The notes below the pieces were generated by a model, which was not told the DNA's origin, did no database searches, and saw only the letters and a program-made list of their open reading frames with translations. A DNA stretch of 64,000 nucleotides from Eunapius fragilis (lineage: Eukaryota > Porifera > Demospongiae > Spongillida > Spongillidae): positions 8,307,044 through 8,371,043 of the forward strand of contig OY811982.1 of NCBI GenBank assembly GCA_963681505.1, read 5' to 3'. Below are positions 24,482 to 52,742 of this stretch, piece by piece. Made by a program: the position numbers and the translations under genes. The first letter of the stretch is position 1. The number at the start of each line of letters is the position of its first letter.

Positions 24482-26570
24482 TTAACGTCCACATATCTCA
24501 TAGCATCGTGAGCAATACCACCATTTTTGTTTAGGAGCTGTTATCAGACAAACACATTTCAGGTGATGCCAATTCAGACAAGAGTCACATTGAATTGACT
24601 CAAACTCATGAAGATCCTCTTCACAAGTTGAGCATAGCCAATTTGGAAATTGTTCATTTTCTGCGATAAGTGCTCCAAGACCATCCCATGCACTACTTTC
24701 AAAGTACTTCTTAACTCTTTGCAATTCAACATTGACATCATGAAGCTTTGGTGACAACTGGTTCAGTTGCACGCTCAGGTAAATCTTTAACAGCAAATTT
24801 TTTCCCCAATAATGATTCTCCAAAATAAGTAGGAATGATCCAGCTAACTATATATTTCTTCTTTTTTTCTGGGCTCTTCTTTATGAATGGTGCAGGCAAG
24901 GTTTCTTTTTGTCTGTGATTTTTTGCAGGTAACCCATTGACTGTAAGATCTGATCCTTTTGGTCTTCCTCTTTTAATCATTTTTGGTGGTAACTGGATTT
25001 TTGTACTCAATACACCCTCCTCATAATTGGAATCAGATAGTGGTTTAGATTTGGTGGATGGCTGTGATTGGTTGGGTGAGAGATGAGTGAGAGGTGTATG
25101 GCTGGTGGTAGGAGGCATATCAGGTGTGACTGGGGGCTGTGAATGTAATGGTGGGAGCTGAAGTGTATGACCATGGTGTTCTGCATCAAGATGGATATTA
25201 CTGGTGGTTGAAGGCATGTCCATTGTGACTGGTGGCTGTGACTGGCACGGTGGTATATTAGCATTTTGGTCTGCATCAATGATTTTAACAGCTACATGCT
25301 TCCCATTCTCCCACATTTCAACAAGTTTTTGCAGGCATTCCAAAGCGTAATGATACTCATTCATTGGGATCTCTGAGGCCAAACTAGCAATTCCAAAAGC
25401 TTTCCTATACTTTTCGTGCTGTGATAAAATTCTTGATGAAGTACGTTGAATGTCAGATACTTGAACTGGTATGCCAATGTTCTGTACAAAATCAGATGAA
25501 AATACCCTGTGACCTTTCATGGTAATAATTTTTGTCCATCGCGCTGAACAAAAATAGTTCCATATTGTGAGTAATACGATGTGAAAATACATGCTTGCAT
25601 GGAAGTTTCTGGCTTTAAAAAAAACTGCACTGGCAGCTAAGTGCAGATACCACTAAAAGACCTTCTGATGATTGCAACACATTGCTTTCTGCAGTACCAG
25701 CATCTAATTTTTTGGCTACATCAAATTGTTCCTTGAGAAATGAAAAAGCGTAAGGAGTAAGAAGCAACTGATAATGATATAGTGCTGACTCTGAAGTGTA
25801 CAACTGTACTGGTGCCTTTTGAAATATAGTGATGGCACGGTGATCTCTTTCAAGTGCAAGAAAATCCAAGCACTTCAGGAGATCTTGGAAGAATGTAGCT
25901 AACGAAGAATATTTTTGCACAACACTCTTGATCTTTTTATTTATTGCTTCAAGCCGGTTATTTGTTCTGTTTAGAAAATTACATGCGTTATTTTTAAGAC
26001 CTTCAACCCATTCTGCTCTTATAGCATGCCAATTTTTATTGAAGTAGTCAATAACTGGCTTCATTTTTGTATCAATAAGCTCCTGACAGTGTTGTTGATA
26101 TTCTATTATTTCTAATGTCATCTGTCTTTGGTCACTAGTAATATGCAATTTCTCCGTGGAAATTTCCCGCTTAAAGCTTCTAAGAGTATGAAAAAGACAT
26201 ATCTGTAGAACTGCATTTGGTATTTCTTCACTAAGTACATCCCTTTCTGTCATATCCTTATCAGACATAATGCACACTGTTCTATCTGTAGAACTGTGGC
26301 GTTTAAAGATACGGACCATGTTCTTAATAGAGATTCGATCTTCAGAAGCAACTATCCATAATGCCACTATTTCACTCTCACCATTGCCATCTACTATCAT
26401 AATGTATAGTGGCATTCGAAGGTCATTCAGCTTGTATGTTGCATCTATCAACAAAAGCTCAGGAAAATTTGAAAACATCTCTTGCATGATTTTTTTCTGA
26501 TAATAAATGCCTTGCAGAACATTCTTTTCATCTTTTCCGATCTCAACAATTGAATCAACTATGAAATATA
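24482..26570 (-). pseudogene. Mutator-like (MULE) transposase, ZSWIM-related, with PHD finger
   Basis: In order on the minus strand, the MULE catalytic core reads LLIDATYKLNDLRMPLYIMI (first Asp) and later VCIMSDKDMTERDV, CLFHTLRSFKREI and NRLEAINKKIK. This is the pattern of ZSWIM1/3-like transposases. Then comes a degraded SWIM finger starting CQCSFF, a linker with KRGRPKGSD, and a C-terminal C4HC3 PHD finger (CDSCLNWHHLKC ... WWYCSRC). Breaks are an extra T in a homopolymer near 25615 that shifts frame inside the SWIM motif, a second frame change near 24770 before the PHD finger, and SWIM ligands replaced. The N-terminal part is missing where the Ginger element begins. The apparent ATG at 26688 and its first roughly 35 codons are Ginger terminal repeat, not MULE sequence. 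Confidence 0.75.
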
Positions 26571-29414
26571 TGTTATGCGCGAAGCATGGATTTGTGGAAT
26601 CCAGGGATTGCCCTGCGCAAACCCTGGATTCATGGTTTGCTTGCGCAATCTCGAGATTGCACCAACGCATTGACGCAATCAGTTGCATTTCGAATTAAAG
26701 GACTGAAGCAATTAAAACTTGTATCGTACCGAACTGAATACACATAGATAACAGTCTCTTGGTCTCCAAGCTGTTTGGGCTTTTTCAACACCATACCTTG
26801 TGTACAACTGCTTCATCAACCAACTGTCAGTTGCTAGGCGTTATTTAGAGCGGATCGGTTATATGCGATATGGATGCTCAAAAGGACACCTTCCAGACGT
26901 TTTTGGTGGATTCATTCTTGTCAGGGAAGAAACCTGGAAGTAAAGTAATAAAAAGAGCAAAGGGCAACAAGATCGTTGCGCTTTTGAAAGGGACTTGTAA
27001 CGATAGTGATCATCATTTGAAATTTTGGGTAAAGTCACGCAATTTTTCCCTAATGTCCTATCCTGCGCTTGGTCTGTCGGATGTGCTTTGCTTGCCTGCC
27101 AGAAAAAAGGTGAGCATTAGAAAAATGTGATAAGTATTTTTTACTTACACTTGTTTTAACCATACAGGATTGTGGTGACACCACCGTGCTTAGCCACGTT
27201 AGAAGAGTGGCTTATATTGAAGACTTCTTTGAGATACTTCACAGGGTGCATTGCCAAGAGCGAGGTCACGTGGGCTACAAAAAACTCTTGCAGAGGTATT
27301 CTGGTAGAATTTGTTTCATGATTATTATACAGTATTATAGAGTATGGTTTTTACTATTACAGATTTTTTCGGCATGCTATGAGTGTCTTCCACGGTCAGC
27401 TGTACAGAAGTTTGTGAGCCTGTGCCCCCTTTGCAATACTCAAAAAGTACAGCGCAATCAAGCATCCCTGAAACCCATCATTGCATCAGGATTCACTGCG
27501 CGAAGGCATACCGTATGCGGTGTTGTATATTGCATTGATATTACACAAAACTGGTCTGCAATCGTCGCGTATGCAGTTTAAGGTACGACTGGAATGCAGA
27601 CTCCCGATAACTCCGGATACGGATACATTGTATATACGTATGATATCAGGTCTGCATACGACCTCTGTATATCAATCAGTATACGTTTCATGACCGTATA
27701 CTGACCCTTGTAACGTTTCAGCATACGTTTGATGTTTGTATGCAGAGTTTCGGTATACGAGTGGTTATCGTAGCATATCCCGATCTGCATTCGGCTACTA
27801 TATCCATTCCCAATAACCAATAATAATATGAGTTGCAAACTTTATATATTAATGAAATCACAACGACATGAATAAGCAGTACAAAATTCTGCTTTCTATA
27901 CTTCTTTCTTCCATCATCAATGCAGCTTTGCATCCATTCGGTCCTGAAGTTGAGGTAAAGTGCGCGTCAAGTCAGTAGCCGCGGTATAAACATCCAAGAC
28001 TTACTGGGAGCAACTGAAGCGCTGTGAATATAGAGTGCGCATAGCAAGTTCTTCAGCGGGTAGTACTTGCCATTTCTAGGGCAGGTTTGATCCTTTGTTT
28101 AGTAGTGGACCAATGGTTTTATGCTGTGCTTGCTGTCGGCTTTCTGTATTAAAGAACACGCTACGGTAAATGTCAAAACGGTACACATTTTCCAACGTAC
28201 TTGAGTTTACTTGCCAAGCGTACGCTCGATTTCTGTCTTCAGCGGTGTATCTATTGTATTGTAAAGAACACGGCATTGTAAAGACTCTACCTTTTTATGT
28301 TTTCTTCGTAAATCGATTTGCCTGGTTTGAGTTTAAAAGAACACTCACACACGTTCAACACTTACTACGATCCCTGCACAAATGATTAGTGAATTCCACC
28401 GTAGAATTACCACGCAGCAGCGTGTTCTTTTTTTTGACACGCGAATAACTACGGAAGATGAAACGCATGGCCAAATTGAGCATCATTACACAACCATAAT
28501 AACCACTTACGTTCGTTGATCTCTCTGCCTACCCATAAGAGAGACATAATACTTACCTACTTTTCATACAGCCATTTTTAAGCGCCAAGAAACACGTGAC
28601 CACGCGACTAAATGTTATTTGTCAATAACCTCCAATCGAAGCCCAGCGCAGCTGAGGTACTATAAAGCCCTGTGGATATGAAATTGTTTCTGCCTAATGC
28701 ATGATCAGATCATTGATGTATGTGTGTATGTGCTTTGTTTAGCGGCTTACAAACAATTTCAATAGGCCTGGAACTTTGTTTTACACCAAGGCATCAATAC
28801 AACTGGCTGTCACGGTCATGCAGTATTAAGCTGTGATTGGTTTTGCTCCGTCGATGAACGCACCACGTATGTCGCACCCACGTTGAGAGCTGTGCTGATG
28901 ATGTGCATGGTCGGGGAGCATCAGTGTACAGGGGCTGATATCGAAAAGGAGGACTGCTCTGCAGCAGGTCAGACCCGCGATATGGAAAGCAGGGGGGAGG
29001 GTGCTGTACGCTTCAGGCCAGACACTCTAAGTAGGGGGGGGGGGGGGGGGGGGGGGCTGCCTAGCGGAAGGGGGGGAGGAAACGTATATGAAATGGGGAG
29101 GGGGGGGGGGGGGGTTGCTGTATCTGCCCATGGTGTACTGTGCTCCCCCACAATAATGTATGTCACTGATTTGTGACTGAAGCTGCTTCTTCTAACATAG
29201 CACATGCTGTCCATACTTTAACTAAATTGTCACCGTATGTCTCCTGGCCTAGCCGGCCTCAGTTAAACAGTTACACGTAATGCCCCCCCCCCCCCCCCCC
29301 CCTCCCTGCCCCAAATCTGCACTTCATTTTCTATTGTATGTGTGTGTGTGCCCTTAGGTGTTATACATGTTTCTGTACAACAAATTTGACAGAAACTTAG
29401 CTCCCTCCCAAATG

Positions 29415-29730
29415 CAAGGGTGTAGACTAGTTTTTAAGGGTGGGGTTATTTGTGGTTACTTTTGCGTGTGCGCGTGGGTTTTGTTTGTGAATACGATGTC
29501 GTTGCTCTCCTGGCTTGCTACACAGAAACCAAAGAGCTGTACAATCAGCAATTGCAAGTGTGGGATGCAATTGTAATACGTGTGTGTGGCATGTCACATA
29601 CAACTCTATTGAATAGTGTGCACTTTACAATTGATTATTAACAACTTCAGAAATTTTTATAACTCAACTGCAAAAATCTGGGGGGGCTAAAGCCCCTCCT
29701 CTCTTCCTCCCACCCTTGTCTACGCCTTTG
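29415..29730. mobile_element. Short TIR (hAT-type MITE) inside element A
   Basis: The left end CAAGGGTGTAGACTAG and the right end, as reverse complement CAAAGGCGTAGACAAGG, form an imperfect inverted repeat with GGGTGGG just inside. Length is about 316 bp with no coding capacity. Part of a matching GGGGCTTTAGCCCC hairpin lies near the right end. Confidence 0.5.
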
Positions 29731-30592
29731 CAATGTGATTGGCTGCACGGAATGTGACGCTGCCACATGCTTGATGGGGTTTAATGTGTGCATAGGGATT
29801 GTCAGCCTAAACTTTTCTGTGTTGGTGTTTTTTATTTTTTAGGCAGATTCCAGTTGAGTGTTCATTGACAGCGAGACAGGACAACGTAACAAGATGTTGA
29901 ACTGGAGTGTTCAAGGCACAAAATGGAACTGTGTGTAGTATGTGTCTTTTGTAATGTGATGTGGGAGTGGTTTTTCTGTAGGTTTTTTCCAGGAGCCGTG
30001 TGAGGGACCACCCCTCCAAATGCATACACATGGCTCGTTGTGTGTTGTGTTGTAATGCTATGTCTATGTGGTTATGTGTGAGCGTGCAAAATGAATTTGA
30101 ACCAAATTGATGATTGACAGGGAGGTGGGGGCATCACGTGGTGCAGCACATGGGGAGGGAGGTACCATGAGTGTCATGCACCCATGATGTGCCAAGCTTG
30201 TGAGTACACTTACATTGTTCGCGGTTGTTAGTGTTCATGCATGTGTAATACACACCTTTGTATCCCACCCTTAGGACTCATCGACATCTGGTTTGGATTT
30301 TCAAGCCCATCGTGTCATCAAGGAACACCATTAATTATATATTAGTACACCATTGCGGATTCAATTTGTTAAACTCGCACTGTCATGGATTATGTTTAAG
30401 ACCACATGTCACATGGCGCATGGGAACCAGAGGCCTCAAACCAATGCTTTCAGTCTGTATTAAACCCTGCCACTGGATAGTCCAAACTATGCAACACTAA
30501 TGTCATCCACTTTGACCTGGCTTGTGTAGTGCGTGATGAAATCATGCTGGAACGTAGTTTTAATTTGGAAGAATCGGTGTTGTAAGGATTGT

Positions 30593-31220
30593 TATTGTGC
30601 CCCGCCCACATTATAGTACACTTGTTTTAACGCTTATAGTCGACTTATGTGCAACAGAATTCGACTCAGCGGGGTACATTTCACTGTATTCGGAACAAGA
30701 TAAAGTTTGGTCATGCTAAAATATCGCTGAGATCGGAATTAGGGTACATATATAAACTGCAATTGAGCGCTACATTCAGAATAGCAATAACTAAAGCTGC
30801 AGTACACAGAAATTAATTCCGTTATTGCTTTCCAATGTATTCTGTACCTCAAACTTGCATTTATAATTATTTACTGCCGATTACCCGCCCAAGATAGTAT
30901 CATCTCTGATCTGTCAATGACCTCGGTCATTATAATATTAAAAATCAGTCATTGAGCACTTGGTTGAAAGTATGCAACACTGCCAGCGTTGTAACGCGTC
31001 ATTTCAACTTTGGCCTTGTGCAACAGATGTGTTCAGCAGGTGACTTACTGACATCTGTTCGATGAAATTTTTGGGCATCAATTTCAGTGTTATTGTGCCC
31101 CGCCTACACTGATATAGCCAACTTAATATATAATATTTACGTGCAATAGAAGCTATAGTGACCCAGGGGCAAATTCCATTGTGTAACGAATGTTTTAAAG
31201 GCACAGAATAACTTTGGTCG
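30593..31220. repeat. Diverged direct repeat pair in element A
   Basis: 30593-30700 and 31091-31200 both begin TATTGTGCCCCGCC.ACA and share ACGTGCAA.AGAA-like and CATT.CA.TGT segments about 500 bp apart. No function is apparent. 31221-33150 holds a (GT)n at 31791-31816 and no gene. Confidence 0.4.
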
Positions 31221-31544
31221 TTCTTTTTTATGATACAAATCAGATTATAATTGTTACAATATACATATATTCATATTACAATTCATGGGCTTATATCATA
31301 ATATATAATTAAAAGATTGAGTTATGTGTGAGATCCAATATAATACTACCTATTGATAATCCTATGTCCCCTAAATATTTGGTTTACTTTAGTAATGATA
31401 CATCGATATTTATGTACACAAATTTTTTGCAGTCCACTATAAGTATTCGCTGTGAGAAGTTTGAGATATTATTGTGTGTATACAAACTGAGCATAGCCAG
31501 GTGTATAGATGGAGTGGGCGGGGGTGGGCACATACAGTTTTTTC

Positions 31545-31612
31545 TTATTATATTGAAGTGGTAAGAGAATCATAGCATTGGCTTCTGTACGTTCGATTCT
31601 CCGAGCGTCCAT
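31545..31612 (+). other. tRNA-like remnant (possible SINE head)
   Basis: An A-box-like AAGTGGTAAGAG is followed about 35 bp later by a good B box, GTTCGATTCTC, the spacing found in pol III tRNA promoters. Stem pairing is poor at the acceptor end, so a functional tRNA is unlikely. A tRNA-derived SINE head or chance remains possible. Confidence 0.25.
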
Positions 31613-34184
31613 TGTGCCAGAAAAATGTAAAGGATTTTGAGCTACAGTCTCATTCCAGATCAGAACAGAAACCTGTTCTAATGAATGTGCTTATATGCTT
31701 CCAGATTGTTCCATATATGGCTTGTTGACATGTAGTTGCAGCTGTTTCTAAGGTTTGAGGTAAGTATGAATATGATTAGGTGTGCATATATGTGTGTGTG
31801 TGTGTGTGTGTGTGGGTGTGTGTAGTTTGTGAGTGATTGAGACAGCCATAGAATTCTTCAAATAACAGTTTGGAACAGGAATATACAAAGCAATTCAGCA
31901 TTCAAATAAAATGTAGTCAACAAAAGTCCATTGGTTGCAGCTGATTGAGGTGCATGTCCTTAGCAGCTCAATTGTTCCAGGTCTGCATAAACTGATCATA
32001 TGACTCAAATTACATAGTAATCCCTTCCAAAAAGAAGCATCCATAAAGACTAGAGTTAAAACCATCCCATCCCAGTGGCACATCCCCCCCCCCCCCTCCC
32101 CCTGTCTCCTGCCACCAAGCAGGATGAAGAAGTATTAGTTTTACCTGAAAAGCAAAACTTCTAGCTTCGCCCCCAGACCAGATCGCAATGGGTAAGCTTA
32201 GAGCACTTCTTCATAGACCCTAACTGGCAGAGTTATGCCCATCCCACACCATTTGCACTTCTGTCAACAATACCTTGTTTGCCGATGTTTTAAATTCAAC
32301 TCACCTTTGAATATGCCCGGCGTGTATGTTATCTAGGATAGAGAAAATACACACAAGTAACATGTGCACATGCAACTGAGCAACTGACTGTCAGTTGTGT
32401 TGTGTGTTGAATGAAGTGTGTATTATAACCTGAATCAATTCCATCTCTGATGTGGGGTCATCAATATCTAACGAGGCTGCCATTTGTGGAGAGAATACAC
32501 ACGTAACAGACAGTACACATACCCATAGCACACAATGGTTGCACCTTTAAGTTTATGCATGTCTATCTGAGCAGATACGAAAGACTATCAGTGCATACAT
32601 GATCCGAGTATGTGTGCAACATGTGCGCGTGTGTGCACATGTGTGTGAATGCGTGCGAGTGTATGCACGTGTGTGTTCAAAACGTTTTATATTATATAAA
32701 CATCTAACCCGCAAATCAACCATCTCCTATGTGTTAGTCCCCATTATCAAAAGATGCCGCCAACCGCGTCCAGCACCCTGTTATGAGACATCGTTTTGTT
32801 CGGGAATAGGTGCGTGCCGCGTCTATATAATATATATTATCTCTGCTATATCTGAAAGGCAAGTAACCCAATCGGCATGCATGCTACGGGGAAGTACTCC
32901 ATGCATGCTGTTAGATAAAATTGACTAACCCCTCCAGACTCCAAAGTGCTTCCCCTCTGCGGTCTATAAACTATTAAGTGCTAGTCACGTGATACAGATA
33001 ACAAAATAATATAATCAAAAAAAAAAAGAATATTATGAGTGATGCCTGCTGACCAAGAATTATAGCTAGCTCCATCATAGCTGTCCGCAGACAAGCGCGT
33101 TGCTTCTTTATGAATGCTGCACAAGAACCTTACAGGCATACGTATTTGACGGTATTTCCACTTGTTAAATCGATCCGCATATCCCCTTCTTACTGCTCCG
33201 CATTCGGCCCCTCTGAATATTGCACAGCATTCTGTTCCTCATACTAGTCTTCTCACATACGAGTCCCCATATGTGTCCGGATACTAGAGTTTCTGCATAC
33301 GTATCCGTATATGACTTAGTATGCAGTGTCTGCGCTACTCTGTATACGGTATACTTCCGCGCAGTGATTTATGAGTAGAGGTCAGGTGAGTTACACTTTA
33401 TGCACAGCAAAACAAAGTTGACAGTGGTGTTTAACAAGCTAGGTTGACCTAATAGACATGCGCCACCGACCAGATGGACCATATAATTGGATAGGAAACT
33501 ACATGGACCATTGGTCTAAATTCCATGTACTCTTTGCCCTTCAGAGGAAGAGTAGAAAAGAGGTGGCCTGGAACCTTGCAACAAAAGTTTTTTCATATCT
33601 TGGTTTATCCAAAAATTGCAATCTGACAATGGGCGAAAATTTGCAAGCACTTTGATAGCCGAATTAGTAAAGAACTGGCCTGGTGAAATTACCATTATCA
33701 ATGGCAGACCACGCCATCCTCAAAGCCAAGGACTGGTAGAAAGAGGCAATGCGAAAGTGGAAGAAATATAGCTTGTCATTATCATGAAAGCAAGGGAACT
33801 AAGTCCTGGACAGACTGGCTACATGAAATTCAATGTAAGTATAATTATCTACTACATCAGTAAGTGATAATTATAATTGCAGATAAATTGAACACTTGCA
33901 TGCATGCAACAACAAAGACAACTCCTTACCAGCTGGTGTTTGGTCAACCTCCTCATTCATCACCATTTCCTGGCACAACCAAGGGCATTGTTATGGAAGA
34001 AGCAGTGTCTGATATCTTAGGTGCTGTACACATGTGTAGCTTGTATTTATACAAAAAAACTTGTAGACTTTTACAAGGCACATTTTGTTTTTGTGGTCTC
34101 GAATATTTTGTACACATAGATGTATGATAGATTCTTGTGACTAAAGAATTGTAAAATTGTAACTATACTGTATTTTATGTATGG

Positions 34185-34860
34185 CTAAGGTACCTTGATG
34201 TACTTGTTACTTTGTATATTACTGCAGATACTTGTGATGTTGTGAAAGAAGTGTCTGCAGATGTACAGGGTGTATTATGACAGGTGAATTGTTTTTAATT
34301 TATGCTAGCAATATTATTCATTGATTCAGATTTTTACAGTCACTGGTAATTTTGATAAAGAAGAAAGTGATGAATCAGGTCAGTAAATTATATACAGTAT
34401 GACAATATGTAGTAATACACAAGGCCAAGGTACCTTAATGCACCTATTAACTCCATACATTGCTGTAGATACTTGTGATGTTGAGAAAGAAGTGACTGAT
34501 ATACATGTATCAGGTGAATTGTACTTTCCCGCTAAAATTATTCAGTCACTCTCAATTTGATTCAGATTATTTCATTTACAGCCACTGGTATTGTTGATAA
34601 AGAAGGAAGTAATTAATCAGGTCAGCAGATTTTATGCAGTATAATATACATTGAATAATAACACAAGGCCAAGGTACCTTAATGCACTTTGTTACTCAAT
34701 AAATTGCTGCAGATACATGTGGTGTTGAGAAAGAAGTGACTGATATACATGTATCAGGTGAATTGTACATGTACTTCCCCGCTAACATTATTCAGTCACT
34801 CGCAATTTGATTCAGATTATTTTATTGTTGATAAAGAAGGAAGTAGTGAATCAGGTCAGT
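34185..34860 (+). repeat. Three tandem copies of an exon-pair module in the Ginger gene
   Basis: A module of about 240 bp occurs three times (starting about 34185, 34425, 34665). Each has GGCCAAGGTACCTT.ATG, an AG-flanked mini-exon beginning ATACTTGTGATGTTG and ending CAG before GTGAAT, then a second mini-exon ending GAATCAG before GTCAGT. The mini-exons encode acidic Asp/Glu/Ser-rich linkers (CDVEKEVTD; DKEGS) between the integrase core and downstream domains. The duplication predates loss of function, because splice sites persist in all units. Confidence 0.6.
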
Positions 34861-37800
34861 AAATGATACGCATCTTGTATGTGTACATGTATACTATTAC
34901 ATCACTCCAGATTCAGATGCAAAGCAAAGTGAAACAAATGTAACACAATGCATAAGTGAGGAGAACCCATATACATGACTATAATAATGGTATTAATTTT
35001 ATATAATTTTAGGTGATCGGTATAGTTAAGGATAAAAGATTTGAATAACTAGCATTATGGGTAATCATATTATTTATACTAGCGTCTGCTGCAAAAGATC
35101 AAGATGATTTCTATACAAGGTAATTAAGGTATTAATGTGTAAAGCAATGTTGCATTTGCAAACTTTTCTGTGTGCAAATTTGTTACAGTCCTGCAGATAT
35201 GCACCTGTTCAACTATATCAAAGCAGAAATGGATCGATTGAAGGTCATACCAGATGCGAGATTTATTCATTGTATCCATCAACACATTCAGCCAGAACTT
35301 ATTGGAATAATTCAGGGGAAAACAAACTCTAATTTGCACAACATATACTGGCATGGAAGCAAGAGTGAGAAAAGTAACATTCACCTTCATGACAACTTTG
35401 GACCATCCAAAGTGCTGCCTGATCATTTGGTTAGCCATTAATGAAGTTGTAATTATGTACACTTACATGGTTATAAACATGCTCCTTATATAGCAATGAA
35501 GATTATATACTTATCTGGGTACTGTTACAAATGCATATATGATGCGTGGATATGGCATATCATATGTTTATGAAGTTTTGATTCCTGAGGTGGGTTCAAA
35601 TATTTATCAAGTTTTCCACCTAGATACACATGTACATGAAGCTTGTTTTTGCTTTGACCTACAGTTTTATACTCGGATGGATAAATTTGTGAGCTCTACT
35701 GGTTCAGAAAGTACTGAGCTAGCAAAAGCTGATGATGATGATGATGGAGTAGATGATGGTGTTGATGCTGATAGTGATGATAATGAAGGTATCACAATGC
35801 AATTATGATGAGGGGTAATTAAGATATATGTTTTAATGTCATGTATTTACCACTTCTTGTAAAATGTAAGATTCATTCATAATTATGATAGCCCTTAGTA
35901 CATGTAGCAATGATTTATTTTGTCTCGGTTTAGTAGCTTGTTTTTAGCTATGTATGTTGTATTTAAAGCTCATTTTGGCTAAGTAGTATATTTTTATTGT
36001 GTAATTACTTACATGTATAGGGCAATATAGTCAGATTTGGAAGCATGTATTGACGCAGACAAGCATTACGGCTGCAATGCTGAAAGAATGAAAAACTCAT
36101 GGAAAAATTTAATGTTGGAGACCTAGTGTCTGTTAGAATCCCTAGAATTGATCGGGCCCGTACAGACACTAGACGATTACCATGCATTGTTGTGAGAAGA
36201 CTGGAAAAAAGCATATGTTTCATCGCCTCAGGTGTGCACAAGGAGTACATAAATCCTGCTATCAGGAAAGTGATTTAGAGTTGTATCCTGGTAGTAGCTC
36301 ATCAAATGATGCATTAAAGGTGAAAGGATGGAAGGATGAGAAACTCATTAGCTTGCGTGAGGCTTCAAAGAGGCAGAACCCTTATATTAAATTCTATGGA
36401 GACAATTGCTCATGTCAGAAAGGCTGCTCGTCGCGGCGATGTAGTTGTGTCATTAAAGGTAAACCATGCACTAGCCATTGCCATGGAGGGAGGCCATGCC
36501 AAAATGAAGTGGAGCATATTACTCCTGGACGCTCATCCAGCAGCAGCACAATTGAAGGAAAAGATGAAGCAAAGCTTATTTCTCCTGGAAGCACACCGAG
36601 CAACAGCACAAAAAAAGATAAAGCAGAACTTATTACATGTATTTTGGAGGCTCACAGTACACTCATTCAGTCATTGTGGTTGTGTCCTGAAAGGTAAAAA
36701 ATGCAGCAGTCTTTGCCATGGAGGGAAATCATGCAAAAATGAAAGAGAATGTATTAATCCTATTTGGGTGTCTGAACTAAGTTTAAATTTAGATGACAAG
36801 AATGCTATCCTTTTAGGTGATTGGTTGACAGACAAACACATCTCTACTGCTAACCAACTACTTACAAGGGGATTTCCACAGTGTAAGGGATTAGACAATC
36901 CAATTTTGGGGGAAAACTTTTCATTTCCTATCCTGAGAGGAGAGGGTGTTCACATGTTACATGTAGATAAATCCCATTGGATCTGTGTGTCAACAATTGG
37001 ATGTACTAGCTTTTGGGGAATTAAATGTATATGACAGCCGACTTACCACTCTCTCCAGCAACACTTAAGGTTATTAATTCACTTCTTCACTGCAGTAAAA
37101 GTGACGTGACTGTCAATATCATGCAATTGCAACAACAGTCTAATGGAAGTGACTGTGGGGTGTATGCAATAGCATGTGCAGCATCTCTGTGCAATGGAGA
37201 TGAGCCATCAGACCAGTGCTGGGATGAGAAAAAGCTGTGCCTTCATCTCCTTCAGTGTTCTGAAAGTACCTCTATGTCAGTCTTTCCAGCTTCAGCTGCA
37301 GGGGATGAAAGTCGTGCACAATGTACCGCCACAATCCTAATACCCTAAAGGTACCAGTCCACTGCATTTGTCGCCTTCCATGGCACAAGAAGATATGATA
37401 CAGGGACGTGTATGGAATGGTATCACCCAAGCTGCTTGTCTTTGCCTTACCACATTTTTAAGAGTTCTAAACCATGGCGCTGTTTACTGTGCTCGGGGTC
37501 TCGTGTATATTACTGCACAATATAGTCCTTTTATTTGTACACGCGTACGCGCATATCATCATGATATCAGTCAATGCATCGTTTCACATTTGATGTAATA
37601 AAATCATTCTCCGTTTAAACCATCGCTTATACATGTACATGTACATATCTATTCTTTGCGCAAGAACAATCCCAGGATTGTCCCGATCCATGGTTTGCGC
37701 ACGAGCAATCCGAGGATTGCGCGGTCAATCCATGGTTTGTGGTACAAACCATGAATCCAGGGTTTGCGCAGGACAATCCCTGGATTGCGCAGGACAATCC

Positions 37801-38589
37801 CTGGATTGCGCAAATCCATGCTTCGAGCATAACAGTTACATTGGGCCCTTCACAAAACATCCCAGATGTAGTTGGCCAGTACCCACAACACCTCTGTCAT
37901 AGTTTTATGCTCTGTGACCACACCCTTTGGGAGACAGGGGGGCTTTTGGTTGCATGGTCCCCAGTCGGAACTCACAAATCTCAACAGTTGTCATCGCACC
38001 CACACTTTTGTGATGGAAACTGACCCTCACTTTTTGTATCGAACCTAAAGCGGACAGCAACCCCTTCGCGTGTACAGCACACAAACGCATGGACACACAC
38101 ACCCTGCTTTTCGTATTGGGTCTGAAGCGGCCAGCACCACTACCTCCCCCCCCCCCCCACCCCCAACCCCCGCTTTTCGTATCGCGTAATGTGAGTGTTG
38201 AGCGCCCGGAGGGGGGTAGGGGGGGGAGGGGGGGGGTGCTGTCGGCTTCTGGTCCGGGCCCAATAGGGGGTACCTAGCGGAAAAGAGGAAGGGGAGGAGC
38301 CTTATGTTATATGAACGGGTTTACAACTGCCCCTGTTTCTGCCCATGCGCATAGGCGGCGGAAAGTAAATAAGCCTGGGGGGGGGGGGGGGGGGAGCGGA
38401 ATTGTAGCGTAAATCGGAGGTGGGGGTGTTTAATTACTGCCGATTTTTCCTTTCGGCGATCTAACCCGCACGCTCTCTCGCTTTCTTTACTATGTACATG
38501 TACATGTACATGTAAATGACTGTGCATGTACCCTCGCATGCAAAATATAATTTTCATTTTTAACATGTACATGCGTATGTATTACGAAA

Positions 38590-43211: not shown

Positions 43212-43751
43212 GTCTTGTTATATAAATGTGAGACATGCCCTCTGCATGGGTACGAGCATCCTGATCAGTGCATTGTTATTTCACAAACATGGAGTGAACG
43301 AGCATGCCTGCCGCGACTAGTGGCCAACTGAAGAGGCCATGATAATGATGTTCAATTATTGGTATCTGTATAAGCAGTAAATGAACAGGTGATATACTCC
43401 CTTGAATTAGGAAAAATTATAATGGGATCAAGTGCTACAAAGCACGCACTGCGTGGCATAGTACCGTATGCAGAGATATGCAGACTCTGTCTACGACTCT
43501 ACGCTAACGTATGCAGATACATATCAAGACATGCACGAATGCGGACCAATATACTTACTCGTACCGAGGTATCTGAATATCAAGAGCAGTGTGCAGATGG
43601 ATATAGTATTGGGTGCGTATTGCACTAGTATTGCCATGCCCGTAAGTTACAATACTGCGCTATAAATAGGAATATAACCACACCTTGAATATAAATTATA
43701 TCTTCTGCGTACATCTACGCGTACACTGAAATTCGAACTCGAAGCTAAGTG

Positions 43752-45290
43752 ACTTTTTATTTATTTATTTATTTATTTATATTATTTTTAATTTTTTAAA
43801 AATAAATAAATATCAATATACCTTACAATATACAAGATAAACCTTAATTAGACACTAGGAGTCAATAAACTGTGGGAGATCTAGCTAATATGGCCCTTAC
43901 ATTTATTTTTTTTTTTAATAAAAATAAATATAAATAAATAACACAATACAGGTAATCAGTTACACAAATGTGGGAACCTTGGCTTCGGCAACAGCCAAGT
44001 CAATGGCACTGTGTGTGAATGGTCGTCCTTGTGAAGATCTGGCACCTCTAAGGCACATAATGGCAGAGCGCAAGAGGGAAAAACTAATGCAGCATCTTAT
44101 CCATGCAATTGTAGCGCCATATGTTTGTTCTCTCTTTGTAGATAGAAGGGTGGCAATTCTCTTATATGTAACTGAAGCACGCTTTCTCATTCCTCCTGAT
44201 GTGCTAAATACTAGAGGAGTGAATGAGCCGAGCCATGTTCAACTTCCCTTATACGTTGGTCATAAGACCTCTGCTTTTTGGCGTTCATGAAGGCGGTAAG
44301 CTGATGGTAGTAGCTGCATGTTTCGGTAAGAGGGAGCATTTGGGTGGAAAACACGTACATAAAAAAAAACGCGTTGGTGACGATCACCCCAAAAACTTTG
44401 TGCGCTGATGTCAAGACGAGCAGAATTCGAAGTTTGATGTGACATCAGCTCTCCAGTAAGAGCTTGCAATGGTGGTTCTACACACACATTGGGACATACC
44501 TCAGTCAGCAGATTAGCTGTAAAATCCCTCAGATCATTGTGGCGCACAGATGGAAAACCACCTGTCGGGCAGGTGAGTGCATGATCTGTGGTGAAGGAAC
44601 TGCCGCAGACACAGTGGCTTGGTAGGTTTGATGGTTGCCAATTGTAACGAAGACACATGGCATCATGGAATGCACCCTTGTGGAGTGCAAAACCATGATC
44701 ACTGATAGGCAGAACTGACAGCCATGATGAGGCACCCTGTTCACTGTTTAGAGCCATAGATCGTACATGGGCAGGAGGCATGGTAGCTTTGAGTCACACA
44801 ATTTCAGAGGAGTGTAATTGTTGTCTAAGTGAGTGAATTGTTGCCTTGGCCTGTTTTTGGTCAACAAGGGTGGAGTGAGGAAGGTCCATGCACTGTGACA
44901 TTATACAGGAGACAAGAGGGGCTGTGATTTTTACTGATGAGGAATATTCAAAAGGAGCTGATACAATGGGGTTAGGTATGGCAATGCCCCCAAGGCGTGC
45001 TGGAAGAGCGAAAATGTCCCTCTCAGTAACAGTGATGCTGTCACGTCCTGTAATGGAGGGTATGAAATGGAGCCTGACTGCATCCTCAAGTGGCTGGAGT
45101 AATGAGGATATGTCAGGTATGGTGCGAAGGAAGAAAGTCCAAAGCCCAGACACACCATGAACAAAGGCACAATAGGCAGCATAAGGTTGAGTCTTCGCAA
45201 ATGGTCGTAACTATATTCATTGACAACTTCTGATAGATCTATGGCTTTTTGTATTTCATTTCGATATCGATCGCATGCTTCTATCAATGG
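43752..45290 (-). pseudogene. Non-LTR retrotransposon 3' end (CCHC and endonuclease-like C-terminus)
   Basis: The minus strand, over several frames, reads WTFFLRTIPDISSLLQPLED, FALPARLGGIAIPNP, then CVCGSSFTTDHALTCPTGGF followed by RHNDLRD, ARLDISAQSFWG and FSLLRSAIMCLRGARSS. The C-x-CG-x7-H-x4-C then RHN then a D-containing strand order is like the zinc knuckle plus restriction-like endonuclease region of R2/NeSL-type elements, though the family is common and loosely named. Frameshifts lie near 45150, 44790 and 44260. Toward the 3' end there are A-rich tails including (TAAA)n at 43752-43780, consistent with target-primed insertion of a 5'-truncated copy into element B. Confidence 0.6.
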
Positions 45291-45479
45291 TGATAAATGT
45301 TAAGTTGTATATACTTAATTCTCAGTATAATTCTCAGTACTAGTACAGAGTGTATGAACAATAAAGACATGGTACTTGTGAGCTTGCGTGGTTTGATGTC
45401 AGTTGCCAAATTTAATGTCCTATGGTCAAGCTCTGCATACTAAAATCATATGAATATGTTGGCTATACTGTTATCATTG

Positions 45480-46320
45480 TCCATAGAGTGAAGTGTTCTC
45501 TGTGATGAGCCAAGAGTGTGTGTAGGTTGGGGTGAGTTGAGCTCGTGCAGTATTAGTGTCTGTTGGTTTGTGTGCTCCCATTAAGGTCTGGACACTTTCT
45601 AATTAGAATATCATGCTGGCTGTTGGACGGCTGGCATTGTCCATTGGATGAAATGTTAACTGTGATGAGTTGATAGTACGTGTAGGTTGGGGTGAGTTGA
45701 GCTTGTCTGGTTATGTGTCTGTTCCATGGTTTGTGTGCTCCCATTACGGTCTGGACACTTTCTAATTAGAATATCATGCTGGCTGTTGAAAGGCTAGCAT
45801 TGTCCATTGGATGAAGTGTTCTTTGTGATGAGCTGATAGTGTGTGTTGGTTGTGGTGAGTTGAGCTCATGTCTGTTCCATGGTTTTGGGCTCCCATTAAG
45901 GTCTGGACACTTTCTAATTAGAATATCATGCTGGCTGTTGGACAGCTGGCATTGTCCATTGGATGAAGTGTTCTCTGTGATGAGCTGATAGTGCGTGTAG
46001 GTTGGGGTGAGTTGAACTTGTCTGGTTAAGTGTCTGTTCCATGGTTTGTGTGCTCCCATTACGGTCTGGACACTTTCTAATTAAAATATCATGCTGGCTG
46101 TTGAAAGGCTAGCATTGTCCATTGGATGAAGTGTTCTCTGTGATGAGCTAATAGTGTTGTTGGTTGTGGTGAGTTGAGCTCATGTCTGTCCATGGTTTGT
46201 GGGCTCCCATTAAGGTCTGGACACTTTGTAATTAGAATATCATGCTGGCTGTTGGACGGCTGGATTTGTCCATTGGATGAAGTGAGTTGAGTTTGTGTGG
46301 TTTTTGTCTCTCTTTCATGG
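45480..46320. repeat. Tandem repeat of about 150-163 bp in element B
   Basis: About five units share GCTCCCATTA.GGTCTGGACA, TAGAATATCATGCTGGCTGT, TTGTCCATTGGATGAA and GGTGAGTTGAG. The spacing of the GCTCCCATTA anchor alternates between about 163, 152, 161 and 153 bp, suggesting a two-unit higher-order amplification. It lies between the transposase gene and the retrotransposon insert. The stretch 46321-47506 shows no gene. Confidence 0.85.
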
Positions 46321-47506
46321 TTTGCAACTTATTTCTAACTCCTCATAGTGACCAATGAGGCTGTCTGAATGTTACGATTTGCACACTATTATTGTCAATT
46401 CGGACTTTTGTCATTTTCCTCATGCACCACTTTCACAACAATGCACACATGATTTTAGCAAGGTGCATGCAACAACAGATCAATGTGTATTTGTGTGTAT
46501 AATATGATGTGTATGCCAATAATTTTGTTTATTGTCAATTGGATGGTAGGTTGTTCGTTATCTCATATATGTGTAACCATATGAAAGTACCTTACGTAAT
46601 GAATAGTGTATGAAGTAATCTATTTATGGTGCTTCGGGCTGGTAACATATTTGGTCTTGGAGTTGGTATGCATACATAGTTGGGTCATCCATTAACACGT
46701 AATTTTCTTGCAAATTGCTGCTTCATCTAACGTGCATTGTGTCTATGTCAAAAACGTTTTTGAACCATCTGACCTCCATGACTGTACATGTTGAATTGCG
46801 GCATAATTACTGAGTGAATGGTTATTATACAGTATACTATAGATGGGTGGGAGACCAATAGTATCATGTTGTCAGGGAAGCCAGTTAGTGCCCGAACTCG
46901 GAGGTCGTCTGACGGGATAGGTGTTGAGGAGGAATCACCTGCAGCCTGCGGAAGTGCTAACAAAGGATTGAATGACTGCCTGCACAGCATGTGATTGGGG
47001 CGCTGACCAGACCGGTTTAGAACCGATTTCCCTTAGACCCTATAAAACCCCCCTTTGCGTCATATCATGTCCCAATCTCAAAATGAATAAATCGTGTATA
47101 CGCGCATTAATTAGTACAAAATTAATTGCAGTTGTTCAAAATTGGTTCCTATACTTCCGTGCAGCATTTTTTTTGCTTGATGTCTGTGGAATAAATGTAA
47201 GTATATATGTGACACAAACTGGCTAGAATGTACATATCTTTTAAACATACTTTTAATTTATAGTCAGATAATGAATGTATACATAACTTTCCAATATCTA
47301 TCAGCTGCATGATATGCTCTCCTTAAAGCTGGTAGTTTCTTTATGTGTTCACATTATTTTATGGACTGGAACTGAAACAATAACTTCTTGCTCTATTCCG
47401 GCAAGATTAGGTACAGTTTTAATAATGGCTGCTTTGCACTGTATCTGATGTATTGGTATATAGCAGTGATGACTTAGTAGAAGAGACCATATATCCACTG
47501 TTTCAC

Positions 47507-50285
47507 CTAGGTATTTTTGTTGCTGTTCAGGAAAAATTTGAAACCACTGAATGTATGCTGTGATGGTTTCACAGTACCGGTGTTTTTGAAGGAAATTGCG
47601 TGCTTTAGGAAGTATTCAATAGAACAAAGCTGATTTCTTGGTGGAGTTAAAGATGTGTTGAGAGCATAAACACAATTTGATGTTTTGCTGATAGACAGTG
47701 AAGAACTATAATGTTCATTAGTGCTGTGCAATTCTACATCTGCAGCTCTAAGGAATAGCCGGGACACATGTGAAATCGAAGTGTTAACATACAGACTAGT
47801 GTATAATCTAGTCATAGTGTCATGTTGCAAATCCGATAAAGCTCCTTCATTAATACGACCACACAATTGATCCTTGTTATCAGCATTGTAGCTCAGGTCT
47901 GATGCATTTCCAAACCTTTGAGCTAATAACACCTTATATACATTGGAATCAAGTTGCTGCAACTTAAGGGACCCACTACAGGCATTAGAGAAATGTGAGC
48001 CAAGATTTGACACAATATTCTCATACTCATTTGATATAAAATCACAGTCCAACACATATTTTTCCAGTGATTGATGTAGAGTAAATTTTCTCATGACCTG
48101 TACATTGATTGAATGATTATTTGTGGAGTAGGATCCTAGGATTCCGTTGTATATAGGACCAAATTTCAGTACTGATTCTGCTAGATGGCAATGTAGATGC
48201 ATGTTAATACTGCAATGCTCAGGCCCAAGGATTTGTTCAATTAACCTGTTAAATTGAATAAGTAAGGTATGAGCCAGTTTCAGGTTTTCAGTAATTATAA
48301 CCCTGGTGCAGAGGATTGTGCATGCTCTTACATACAGTTCCCACATGGCCATCTGCTGTGTAGGTAGGATATCATTTAATGCATAAACAGTGTAAATTAA
48401 GGTCCAATTTTTCCATTCGTCAGCAGTAAAATCATTAAAGTTGGATGATATTTTTGCTGGAATTCTCCCAACATCTGATGGTGGAATCATTGAGTTAACT
48501 TTGTCTTGTATTACTGCTACATCTTTTGCGTTAATAATATTGGCCTTTTGCCACACTTCCATCATGTGTTTACTAGTTCCTAGAAAAAGATTGTGCATTG
48601 GGTCAATAGCACAGGTTGCAATGATGTCAAAATACGGTAAATCCAGTAATACAGAAAATTTCATACCATGCTCCTGTTCAAAATGTTTTCTTTCAATCTT
48701 TGTCTTGCATTGGAGATATCGTCTTGCATTATTTCTATGGTCAGCATTGCTGCGACAGGGCCATGCATCTAAATCATAACCTGAAAAATCAGTCCGATCA
48801 CCATTTCTTTTAAAGTCTTTTTAAAAACATTTATTGCAGGCTTTTAAAGCATTATGTCCAACAAATCCGCAAACCTTTCTAGACGCAGGTATATCACAAC
48901 ATATTGCAATCAACCTTCCTTTTATAAATGCTTTTTTACCTAATACATCCGGAGAAGTGAACCAAAAACCTTCATCAAGCTTCAAAAGGTCCTGAACTAG
49001 TGGTGTTAGGTATGAATTTAGCACAAGTGTTGGTTCCTTTGGACCGGGAATTAGACCTACAAGTATTGTGTTCTGTTCTTTAAACCGTATTGGTCTGGGT
49101 AAATACGGAATCGATACATATATTGCTCCCATTGAATACGTTCCGTGTTTAAAAGGGTTGAACCAATCAACGTTAAGCATAAATCCAACTGTATTTCCTT
49201 CTCTACCACCTGTACTGTCTTGTAATTCTTTCCACAAACGTCCGTCATAAATGTCAGTAAGTAAACCGTTCACAGATTTATATTCACGCCAGCTGTTAAT
49301 TAGAGCCATAAAACCAGGTTTTTCAAATCTCTCAGACAAATCATTTAAAATGCTCCTATAACAGTAGGTTTTTATAGGAACAAGTTTCTTTCCACCAGAA
49401 GCTAATTACACTTCTTTCAACAGTTTTTCATTACAGGGCTGACGAAAACTCTTTTGTGGATGATGAGGAAATTGAACAAACCTACATTTAGAAGATTCTA
49501 CACCACTACAAAAATCAGAGTTTTGAATACAGTAATTCATATCATATAAAGAATGACACTTTGGGCACACAACGTATTGATAAAAATTGTCATTTATACC
49601 TACACTTCTCTTAGCTGATGAAAGAGACAGTGGGACTTTTATTGTGGGCAGTGATTTGTTTATTTTAAGTAATAAAAACTTTAGAAACTTCAAAAGCACA
49701 TTGACTGCATTATCTGTTACTTTATGCACACTTTTCCAGATCAAAACAAACAGCAGCAGATAACGTGATATTTGTATGCTGGTCAACGAATCACCTGACA
49801 ATTTTGAAGCATCTGATTCAATTTCAAGAACAATATCAACGTGTCCTGAGTTTTCAGGTTCCTCAAACGTAGCTCCATTGTCATCATCCTGAACAGTGAT
49901 GCCATCGTCTTCGATTTCTAGCAGCCCCTATATATGTGCAACATGCAGTTGTTATTGAACGTTATACGCATTACATGCACAACAGTTTAAATAAATACAA
50001 AAAAATATTCCTTACTGCATCGTTGTATTCTGCTTGGTTCTCAGCGTCAGTATCAGAGGCCTCCATATCAGAATCGTCGAAATCTGTATATTCGAGATCG
50101 CTGGCACTGACCTCATCTTGATCAGTTCGGTATTCGCAGTCTACTTCAGATGGTTTAACTGTCATTTGCTTCTGCCACACTCCAGATGTAGTTGAATAGT
50201 ACTTCTTTTTGTGCGCATAGTAAGCTGTTCTACCCAAAGGCAAATCACAATGCGGACAAAGTTTTCGTTTTTTAGTTCCTTGCAT
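47507..50285 (-). pseudogene. En/Spm (CACTA) transposase, TNP2-like
   Basis: The first exon starts at 50285 with a C-x2-C finger-like MQGTKKRKLCPHCDLPLG and an acidic stretch, ending at a GTAAGG donor near 50016. An AG acceptor near 49928 opens the main exon. Landmarks in one frame are CPKCHSLYD, FMLNVDWFNPFKHGTYSMGA, CCDIPASRKVCGFVGHNALK with CNKC, IATCAIDPMHNLFLGTSKHM, ADEWKNWTLIYTVYALND and HLHCHLAESVLKFGPIYN, the DPMHNLFLG and HCHLAES blocks being characteristic of metazoan En/Spm transposases. Two in-frame TAA codons (49408 and 48823) interrupt an otherwise continuous frame of about 800 codons, so it is inactive unless read through. It lies inside CACTA ends with an ACG duplication. Confidence 0.85.
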
Positions 50286-50440
50286 CTTGCGATCTTAGCG
50301 ATATATGATGTACGTAAACGCAGCCAATTCAAATTTAAAGGTGCTACTTTCACTCTAGATCTAGATCTGGATGTATAACGCGCATGCTCTGATAATTTGT
50401 GCACGTGTTGGAAAATAGGTGATTAAGGCGGGACAATTCT
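50286..50440. promoter_or_regulatory. Bidirectional intergenic region of En/Spm element B
   Basis: The short interval between divergently oriented transposase and accessory genes presumably holds both promoters. A direct CTAGATCTAGATCTGGAT stretch lies at about 50356-50373. No TATA box is clear. Confidence 0.3.
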
Positions 50441-51758
50441 ATGGGACTCGTACTCCTCCATCAAGTAAAGGAATTAAGCTCACAATCAACCCCAGTACGA
50501 AATGGAAGCAAAGGAAAGTCTCCTGGTGTATCACAGTTACAAAATAGATCTTTGCAGCCAACTGCATTGGAACTATCTGGTTCTCAGACAGTTGCAGCTT
50601 GTGATGAAAGGTCTTCACTAGCTGAAGTAATACGGATCAGCCAGGTCCATGATAAAGCGATTCAAGCGTTGCGGACCATGGTAGAAGATCAAAACACTAA
50701 AATAGCATCAATAACAACTGCTGTGGAAGATATGGGGAAAAAGATGGAATCACACATCGTACCGAAGAAAACCGAAAGGAGTAAGGCAGTTCCTAAGATT
50801 TACTGGTAAGCTGTTCGAGTCACACTCACAATGTCATATTACTGCTACTCTCTTACCAAACCAGGACAAAGTGAAGATACTGTATGGTTCTATGGATGCA
50901 GCGGCGTTCGAGTTGTCACAAAGGTATATATACAACCCGCGTGGCAGTACATATTTTATCGCTTTTTTTGTAACACAGATCCGACAGTGAGCACAATAGA
51001 AGAGCGTTCAATTTCATAAAGAAGGAACTCGCCGTGCAAGGATACACCTCTACTATCGCGCATAGTACGCTGGATGTGTATAGATTATTAACGTACGCGT
51101 GCATGCAAATAACTTCAGTCTCACGTAACGATCAGAAGCTGTACGAAGACACTTTGAGACACTACAGCGAGCACATCGCGACTCAAATGCGGAAGGAGAG
51201 GAGCTAGACAAAGTGAACCAATCGCGCCAAAAAAAGAAAAAGGCTTCACGCTCTCACAGGGGAACAACATGCATGAATTGACACATTTACATGTATATTC
51301 ATTCTGACAGCTCTTTAGCCGCGCCAAGCTGTAGTAAGGCCGAATGAAAAGGCTTTGTGGGATGGACTGTCGGTCTATTACATGACCGACGAAAGTGATA
51401 ACAGTGATGACGGCAGCATTGTTAAGCACAAGTTACCGTGGCGGTCTGAGAGTAAGTTAATGTGCTTAGATGCTAACTGATTGCCTTTACGCACCGAGCG
51501 TCAAAATTCATCGTGATTATACACTTTTCAGCGCTTGATGCCTTTATGGAAACTCTCGATAAGCGCCAGGAGAGTACTAGAGGCTCATGCTGGGTTGAAG
51601 GAAAGAAACGAGTACTCGGCTCGCCCTCAAAGAGGCCTCCTCCACAAGAAGAATGCCCCAGTAACTTCATGAGAGCTTTATATGTGGCCGGTGGTCCTGA
51701 AGATGAGGAAACACGTGGAGGTGATGAGGACTTTGATCTTACCAAATGGAATAGCTAG
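50441..51758 (+). CDS. Second En/Spm gene (accessory protein), multi-exon
   Basis: Transcribed divergently from the transposase, with about 155 bp between the starts. Exon candidates are 50441-50804 (GTAAGC donor; coiled-coil-like RISQVHDKAIQALRTMVEDQ), 50865-50923, 50979 onward (reading AFNFIKKELAVQGYTSTIAH), an exon with YYMTDESDNSDDGSIV and KLPWRSE before a GTAAGT donor at about 51451, and 51532-51758 (LDAFMETLDKRQ, SKRPPPQEECP). The acidic linker, then LPWRS, a short helix and a Pro-rich SxRP tail resembles a protein repeatedly found beside animal En/Spm transposases. Joining the first two exons as drawn gives a stop, so the model is incomplete or broken. Confidence 0.5.
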
Positions 51759-52742
51759 ACTGTTGTTATTTTTTCATTTTATTGCAGCTGAATATGTATG
51801 CATGTCATTCTATGAAAGTTTGCCGCTACATTTACTAGCGGACCAGGGGTGCGCATGCGTATACGTAACCCAGGTAGTCTAGCTTCAAGTATGCAGAACA
51901 GTAAACAACTCGAATGCATGACATGCACAGAGCCTGCACACGTTCATCTGAAGTATGCAGACAGGTGACAACAAATATACTGAATCCATATGCAGACCAC
52001 GATATTATACGTATAAGTGAAGTGTTCGTTCTGAGACGTGTACAGATCCTGCATACGAGGCGTGTGAAATACAGCCCACGTGTCGAGTGCAGACACATAT
52101 CGATCAATATAGGTGCAATATACAGGGCTGTATACGGTATACTGTCGCGCCGTGACGTGTGTGAACACGATGAGGTAGGTGTACATTAGAGATGGTGTAC
52201 TGATTTTAGTACCAGGGGTGGATGCAGGAATTGAATGAGGGGGGTGTCCATAATGAATATTTGATGAGTGCATAGGGTATGGGGAGCGCAATAAGCTCCC
52301 CCACGAGGTCTGGGACGGAGCCTCAGGAGCCAACGCTTGAAAATAAAACTTGCTTAGCGCAGTTTAGATGCACTTGAAATGGCCATACATCGTCATAATG
52401 TACTTAGCTCAGTTGCATTTAAACTATAGTCCAATAGAAAGTACTTCATTTCATATATGGGAAAATATCCGCGAAATAAAGGGTGTATCAAATTATCCGA
52501 TCTTAGGTCCTCTACAACTTATGCACTTGAAATTGGATGGCATGAATTTCTAATAGCGCTTATATGCGTCAACCTCGGCGCTCGTTTCTGAAAATTTTTT
52601 GTATCATTGCGTTAGGTCCATATATGCTTGCTGCAAGCATTGTCTGTTCGAAACCGTGCTATATAATGCTGAATGCGTTATTGCAAGTGTCAAGCAATGC
52701 ACTTAAAGCCAGAATGACACGACATGTATAATGTATAATGAT

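Follow-up and report, generated by a model that had tools for sequence, protein, structure and literature searches.

Nested transposon insertions are a well-known kind of event, and both superfamilies that meet at the locus reported here have been described before. CACTA (En/Spm) elements are given as having CACTA ends and a 3-bp target-site duplication (PMC4158355), and Spongebob of Hydra, another animal CACTA group, as having CCC ends and 2-bp duplications (PMC4298943). Ginger elements carry TGTNR ends and 4-bp duplications; Ginger1 targets CCGG or CCGT, Ginger2 targets RTATAY, and OTU, Ulp1 or PHD domains have been described for Ginger1 (Bao et al. 2010, PMC2836005). Another account puts the duplication length at 4 bp in Ginger1 and at 4 or 5 bp in Ginger2 (PMC10045372). 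Our comparisons refer to these excerpts of the published accounts.

We analysed a stretch of 64,000 nucleotides of the sponge Eunapius fragilis (hereafter the window; G000:C12:8307044-8371043 in an assembly of 219 Mb and 24 contigs), in which an integrase-type exon of a Ginger element is interrupted by a second transposon. The insertion site is exact and has an empty counterpart, the target duplication and the family-wide ends of the insert are read directly, and the other Ginger copies tested lack the insert. The evidence argues very strongly for cut-and-paste insertion of a non-autonomous CACTA element into the Ginger exon, with a tnp2-bearing relative as the most likely helper.

The insert and its family

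The first-pass annotation of the window had placed an En/Spm (CACTA) element with a perfect ATT duplication at 27491-33369, a span that comprises the insert and both ATT copies. The insert has the following limits.

27491..27493, unstranded: left ATT target-site duplication, read in the window and compared with other Ginger copies
27494..33366, plus strand: insert of 5,873 bp with termini shared across its family, best read as a non-autonomous CACTA (En/Spm) element
27494..27516, plus strand: left terminal inverted repeat, 23 bp, 20/23 identical to the right one
33344..33366, minus strand: right terminal inverted repeat, 23 bp, imperfect
33367..33369, unstranded: right ATT target-site duplication, read in the window and compared with other Ginger copies

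The left end, CACTGCGCG, begins at 27494 and the right end, CGCGCAGTG, runs up to 33366, with ATT immediately outside both, as had been proposed. The first 367 bases of the insert match at least 40 places in the genome, and its left end recurs from base 1 at at least 36 places besides the window's (40 of 48 candidates scored in each case). Genome-wide, a pattern of the ends with at most one mismatch gave 91 matches, compared with 5 for the pattern read backwards.

Both ends were read in 22 element copies, among them the window's; 18 of these carry an identical 3-mer flush with the two ends, and none carries a flush 4-bp duplication (the set omits L055, whose flanks equal those of L054). As controls, the left and right flanks of mismatched copies agreed in 19 of 462 pairings, and an identical triplet was found one triplet further out in none of the 22 copies. 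The 3-mer duplication is therefore above chance. The 3-mers are mismatched in four end pairs (L042/L075, L026/L076, L048/L078 and L043/L079) with spans of approximately 7.9 to 30 kb, for which our guess is wrong pairing or later rearrangement. The closest fetched copy has a K2P distance of 0.012 to the insert over 1,147 bp. Over the longest aligned stretch, K2P to the window copy is 0.012-0.035 in 12 fetched element loci and 0.037-0.078 in the other 33, the 45 loci including some copies fetched twice. One CACTA copy (L058, 1679-7809), with a GAT duplication, lies nested within a second member of its own family.

Relationship of the insert to CACTA elements

The window holds a second, larger element of this type.

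43447..52154, minus strand: CACTA element with a tnp2 transposase domain, 8.7 kb, with ACG at 43444-43446 and 52155-52157

The ends of this element are CACTGCGTG and CACGGCGCG, the left one having been found with a loose pattern (at most 6 mismatches) that also has chance-like matches elsewhere in the window. It contains a Transposase_21 (tnp2) domain (E 4.8e-13), a domain with at least 150 matches in the genome among the scored part of 305 candidates. Further minus-strand ORFs lie at 44260-45299 within the element, outside its tnp2 ORFs. When the insert was compared with this element alone, its left 179 bp were 66% like one end (E 2.4e-5) and its right 78 bp were 69% like the element (E 0.012), a modest likeness confined to the ends.

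No transposase family was detected by Pfam among the 45 stop-to-stop ORFs (at least 50 residues) of the insert, a scan that would miss short spliced exons. The Pfam matches among these ORFs, DUF5558 (E 0.00085) and PUFD (E 0.0032), are both without a link to transposition, and a tblastn search for tnp2 remnants inside the insert gave a best E of only 0.61. Because the insert has no detected transposase domain and its ends resemble those of the tnp2-bearing element, we read it as non-autonomous.

The insert differs from Spongebob of Hydra, which has CCC ends and 2-bp duplications in the part of the account cited above. It shares with CACTA elements the CACT-type ends, the short inverted repeats and the 3-bp target duplication, and its relative within the same window carries the tnp2 domain. 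Unlike CACTA elements, it has ends that begin with CACTG, the fifth base being G within inverted repeats paired at 20 of 23 bp, and by the searches above it encodes no tnp2-type transposase. These two departures from a strict CACTA element would also suit a CACTA relative such as Chapaev or Mirage, or another superfamily. However, Chapaev makes 4-bp duplications, whereas 3-bp duplications flank 18 of the 22 copies and flush 4-bp ones none, and related ends are found on a tnp2-bearing element, which makes such an assignment very improbable. The earlier assignment to En/Spm is thus supported by the 3-bp duplication and the related tnp2-bearing element, and it is refined here to a non-autonomous member.

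Insertion into a Ginger integrase exon

The Ginger copy that hosts the CACTA element is divided as follows.

26571..27493, plus strand: 5' part of the host Ginger, from the TGTTATGCGCG terminus to the insertion site
33370..37834, plus strand: 3' part of the host Ginger, to the terminus ...GCATAACA
33370..33385, plus strand: remainder of the interrupted exon (MSRGQ), from the sequence and other copies
33386..33442, plus strand: predicted GT-AG intron, 57 bp, read from the sequence
33443..33863, plus strand: integrase catalytic exon, which changes frame in this copy, from ORF reading, other copies and domain matches

Before the insertion point, the frame reads ...KPIIASGF. Beyond the right ATT, the sequence continues with the bases of MSRGQ and a GT donor at 33386; the AG acceptor ends at 33442 and VDLIDM follows from 33443, in agreement with the residues and the intron named in the first-pass annotation. 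A search with the left flank, in which 40 of 92 candidates were scored, found at least 37 other places with host sequence that reaches the insertion point, and two that have the beginning of the element in its place. By match coordinates, the right flank lies directly after the left flank in 36 of the 37 listed Ginger copies, some bases at the insertion point being missing in a few of the 36; the 37th, on C23, has no right-flank row nearby and lies outside the contiguity count. At three more places, C5:4463978, C2:4230343 and C7:7072574, a right-flank match begins at the point with no left-flank match listed.

We read the 18 best matches among the 36 contiguous copies across the point. All 18 have CATCAGGATTTATGAGTAGAGG, uninterrupted and with a single ATT, and all are translated there as SGFMSRGQ, with IIASGF in 17 and IVASGF in L016. 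The empty site by which the annotation had proposed to check its claim is thus present in other Ginger copies. Its further statement that excision of the element with one ATT restores the frame holds locally, giving SGFMSRGQ, but not beyond, where the frame changes again at 33443-33771 within the next integrase exon of the window's copy. A single frame spans this next exon in 8 of the 18 other copies.

Because the other Ginger copies tested are empty, it follows that the insertion is later than the window's Ginger copy and, among the copies tested, private to it; the order that had been proposed, Ginger first and CACTA later, stands together with the exact site. Alternatively, the Ginger copy could have received the element at another locus and brought it here when it moved, and a cut-and-paste move of that copy would leave no second copy behind. 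We consider this very unlikely, as none of the 36 contiguous Ginger copies elsewhere has an insert at the same site by coordinates. Divergence of the other Ginger copies from the window's copy is 0.019-0.086, and we offer no finer dating of the two families because their divergences overlap.

In the insertion that we favour, the non-autonomous CACTA transposon would have moved by cut-and-paste into a resident Ginger, within the exon for its integrase-type transposase, where a staggered cut at ATT and fill-in after strand transfer would have duplicated the three bases. The transposase would most likely have acted in trans from a tnp2-bearing CACTA relative of the 43447-52154 kind; we infer both this helper and the chemistry of the transposition. 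The finding is correct in detail, ordinary in kind and very cleanly documented. It provides an exactly mapped insertion in one copy and places two transposon families of one genome in a clear order, which is useful for relative dating and annotation of both families, and it leaves the knowledge of the CACTA and Ginger superfamilies unchanged.

A further CACTA copy of the insert's family, L023 (G000:C7:5821895), adjoins a second Ginger copy at the point that corresponds to window position 35136, as read at its left junction only; its right junction was not found among the 40 scored of 129 candidates. A 12-base flank of L061 had also looked Ginger-like, but no match to Ginger was obtained with the L061 flanks that were fetched, and this candidate was set aside. 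Two Ginger copies are hit by this CACTA family, and the chance expectation of further hits is 0.03-0.08, calculated for 219 Mb with 37-92 Ginger copies, each of 5.4 kb, and with 35 other CACTA copies. Since the second hit was examined after the fact, we do not claim targeting of Ginger by CACTA.

The host Ginger element and its outer flanks

The remaining features belong to the 3' region of the host and to its surroundings.

37025..37522, plus strand: parts of the Ginger gene with weak Pfam matches, one Ulp1-protease-like and one PHD-finger-like
24500..26570, minus strand: MULE element adjoining the left Ginger end, left limit approximate, with an ORF (25615-26694) that runs into the Ginger end
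37835..38349, unstranded: repeat of another kind, broken off where it meets the right end of Ginger, from other copies of the repeat

The host ends in TGTTATGCGCGAAGCATGG and its near inverse, which are of the TGTTA type, and its matches to other Ginger copies start near 26566 and end at 37812 or 37834 where they run through. Of 12 right ends fetched, nine belong to Ginger copies whose left end was also read, and identical 4-bp flanks are present in all nine; five of these nine flanks are free of TA-run ambiguity because they are other than TATA. RTATAY fits exactly at four of the nine target sites, and the duplication is CCGG or CCGT in none of the nine. In copy L010, the catalytic exon has an integrase-core match (PF00665, E 2.8e-7) whose 31.2 bits fall slightly short of the Pfam cut-off of 32.6, and this exon also matches 34 distinct solved sequences, the best being an integrase (E 1.8e-9). 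The Ulp1-like (PF02902, E 0.0024) and PHD-like (PF00628, E 0.0015) pieces are both under the Pfam cut-offs.

Within the published excerpts, the host is like Ginger2/Tdd in its TGTNR ends, 4-bp duplication, lean to TATA-like targets and integrase core, and unlike it in fitting RTATAY in just four of nine copies and in the weak C-terminal Ulp1- and PHD-like pieces, a Ginger1 trait. It is like Ginger1, as excerpted, in its integrase, TGTNR ends, introns and perhaps the Ulp1 and PHD pieces, and unlike it in its target duplications. The target choice thus leans towards Ginger2, and the weak Ulp1/PHD-like pieces recall Ginger1.

At the left Ginger end, other MULE copies are aligned by BLAST as far as 26562; the 8 bases that remain before Ginger, GAAATATA, fit the MULE copies by eye after a 7-base difference. 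Both MULE copies read and all three copies read of the right-flank repeat run on past their junction points. The 4-mers flanking the window's Ginger copy differ, TATA versus GTTA. The discordant outer flanks and unequal 4-mers suggest either that Ginger copies have recombined or that the assembly is misjoined here; a crossover between two such copies explains the flanks, and a misjoin possibly does so as well. A join between two Ginger copies in this stretch, with a MULE and TATA on the left and another repeat and GTTA on the right, might raise the suspicion that both CACTA junctions are likewise assembly joins that placed the element into the Ginger copy. However, both CACTA junctions fall on family-wide ends with matching ATT, which is unexpected from a misjoin, and we regard this explanation as extremely improbable compared with transposition of the CACTA element into the exon. 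For the host itself, we tentatively entertain, with more doubt than conviction, a lineage that combines the AT-rich target of Ginger2 with the Ulp1/PHD C-terminal pieces of Ginger1 and of which the window's copy is a recombinant of two Ginger insertions.
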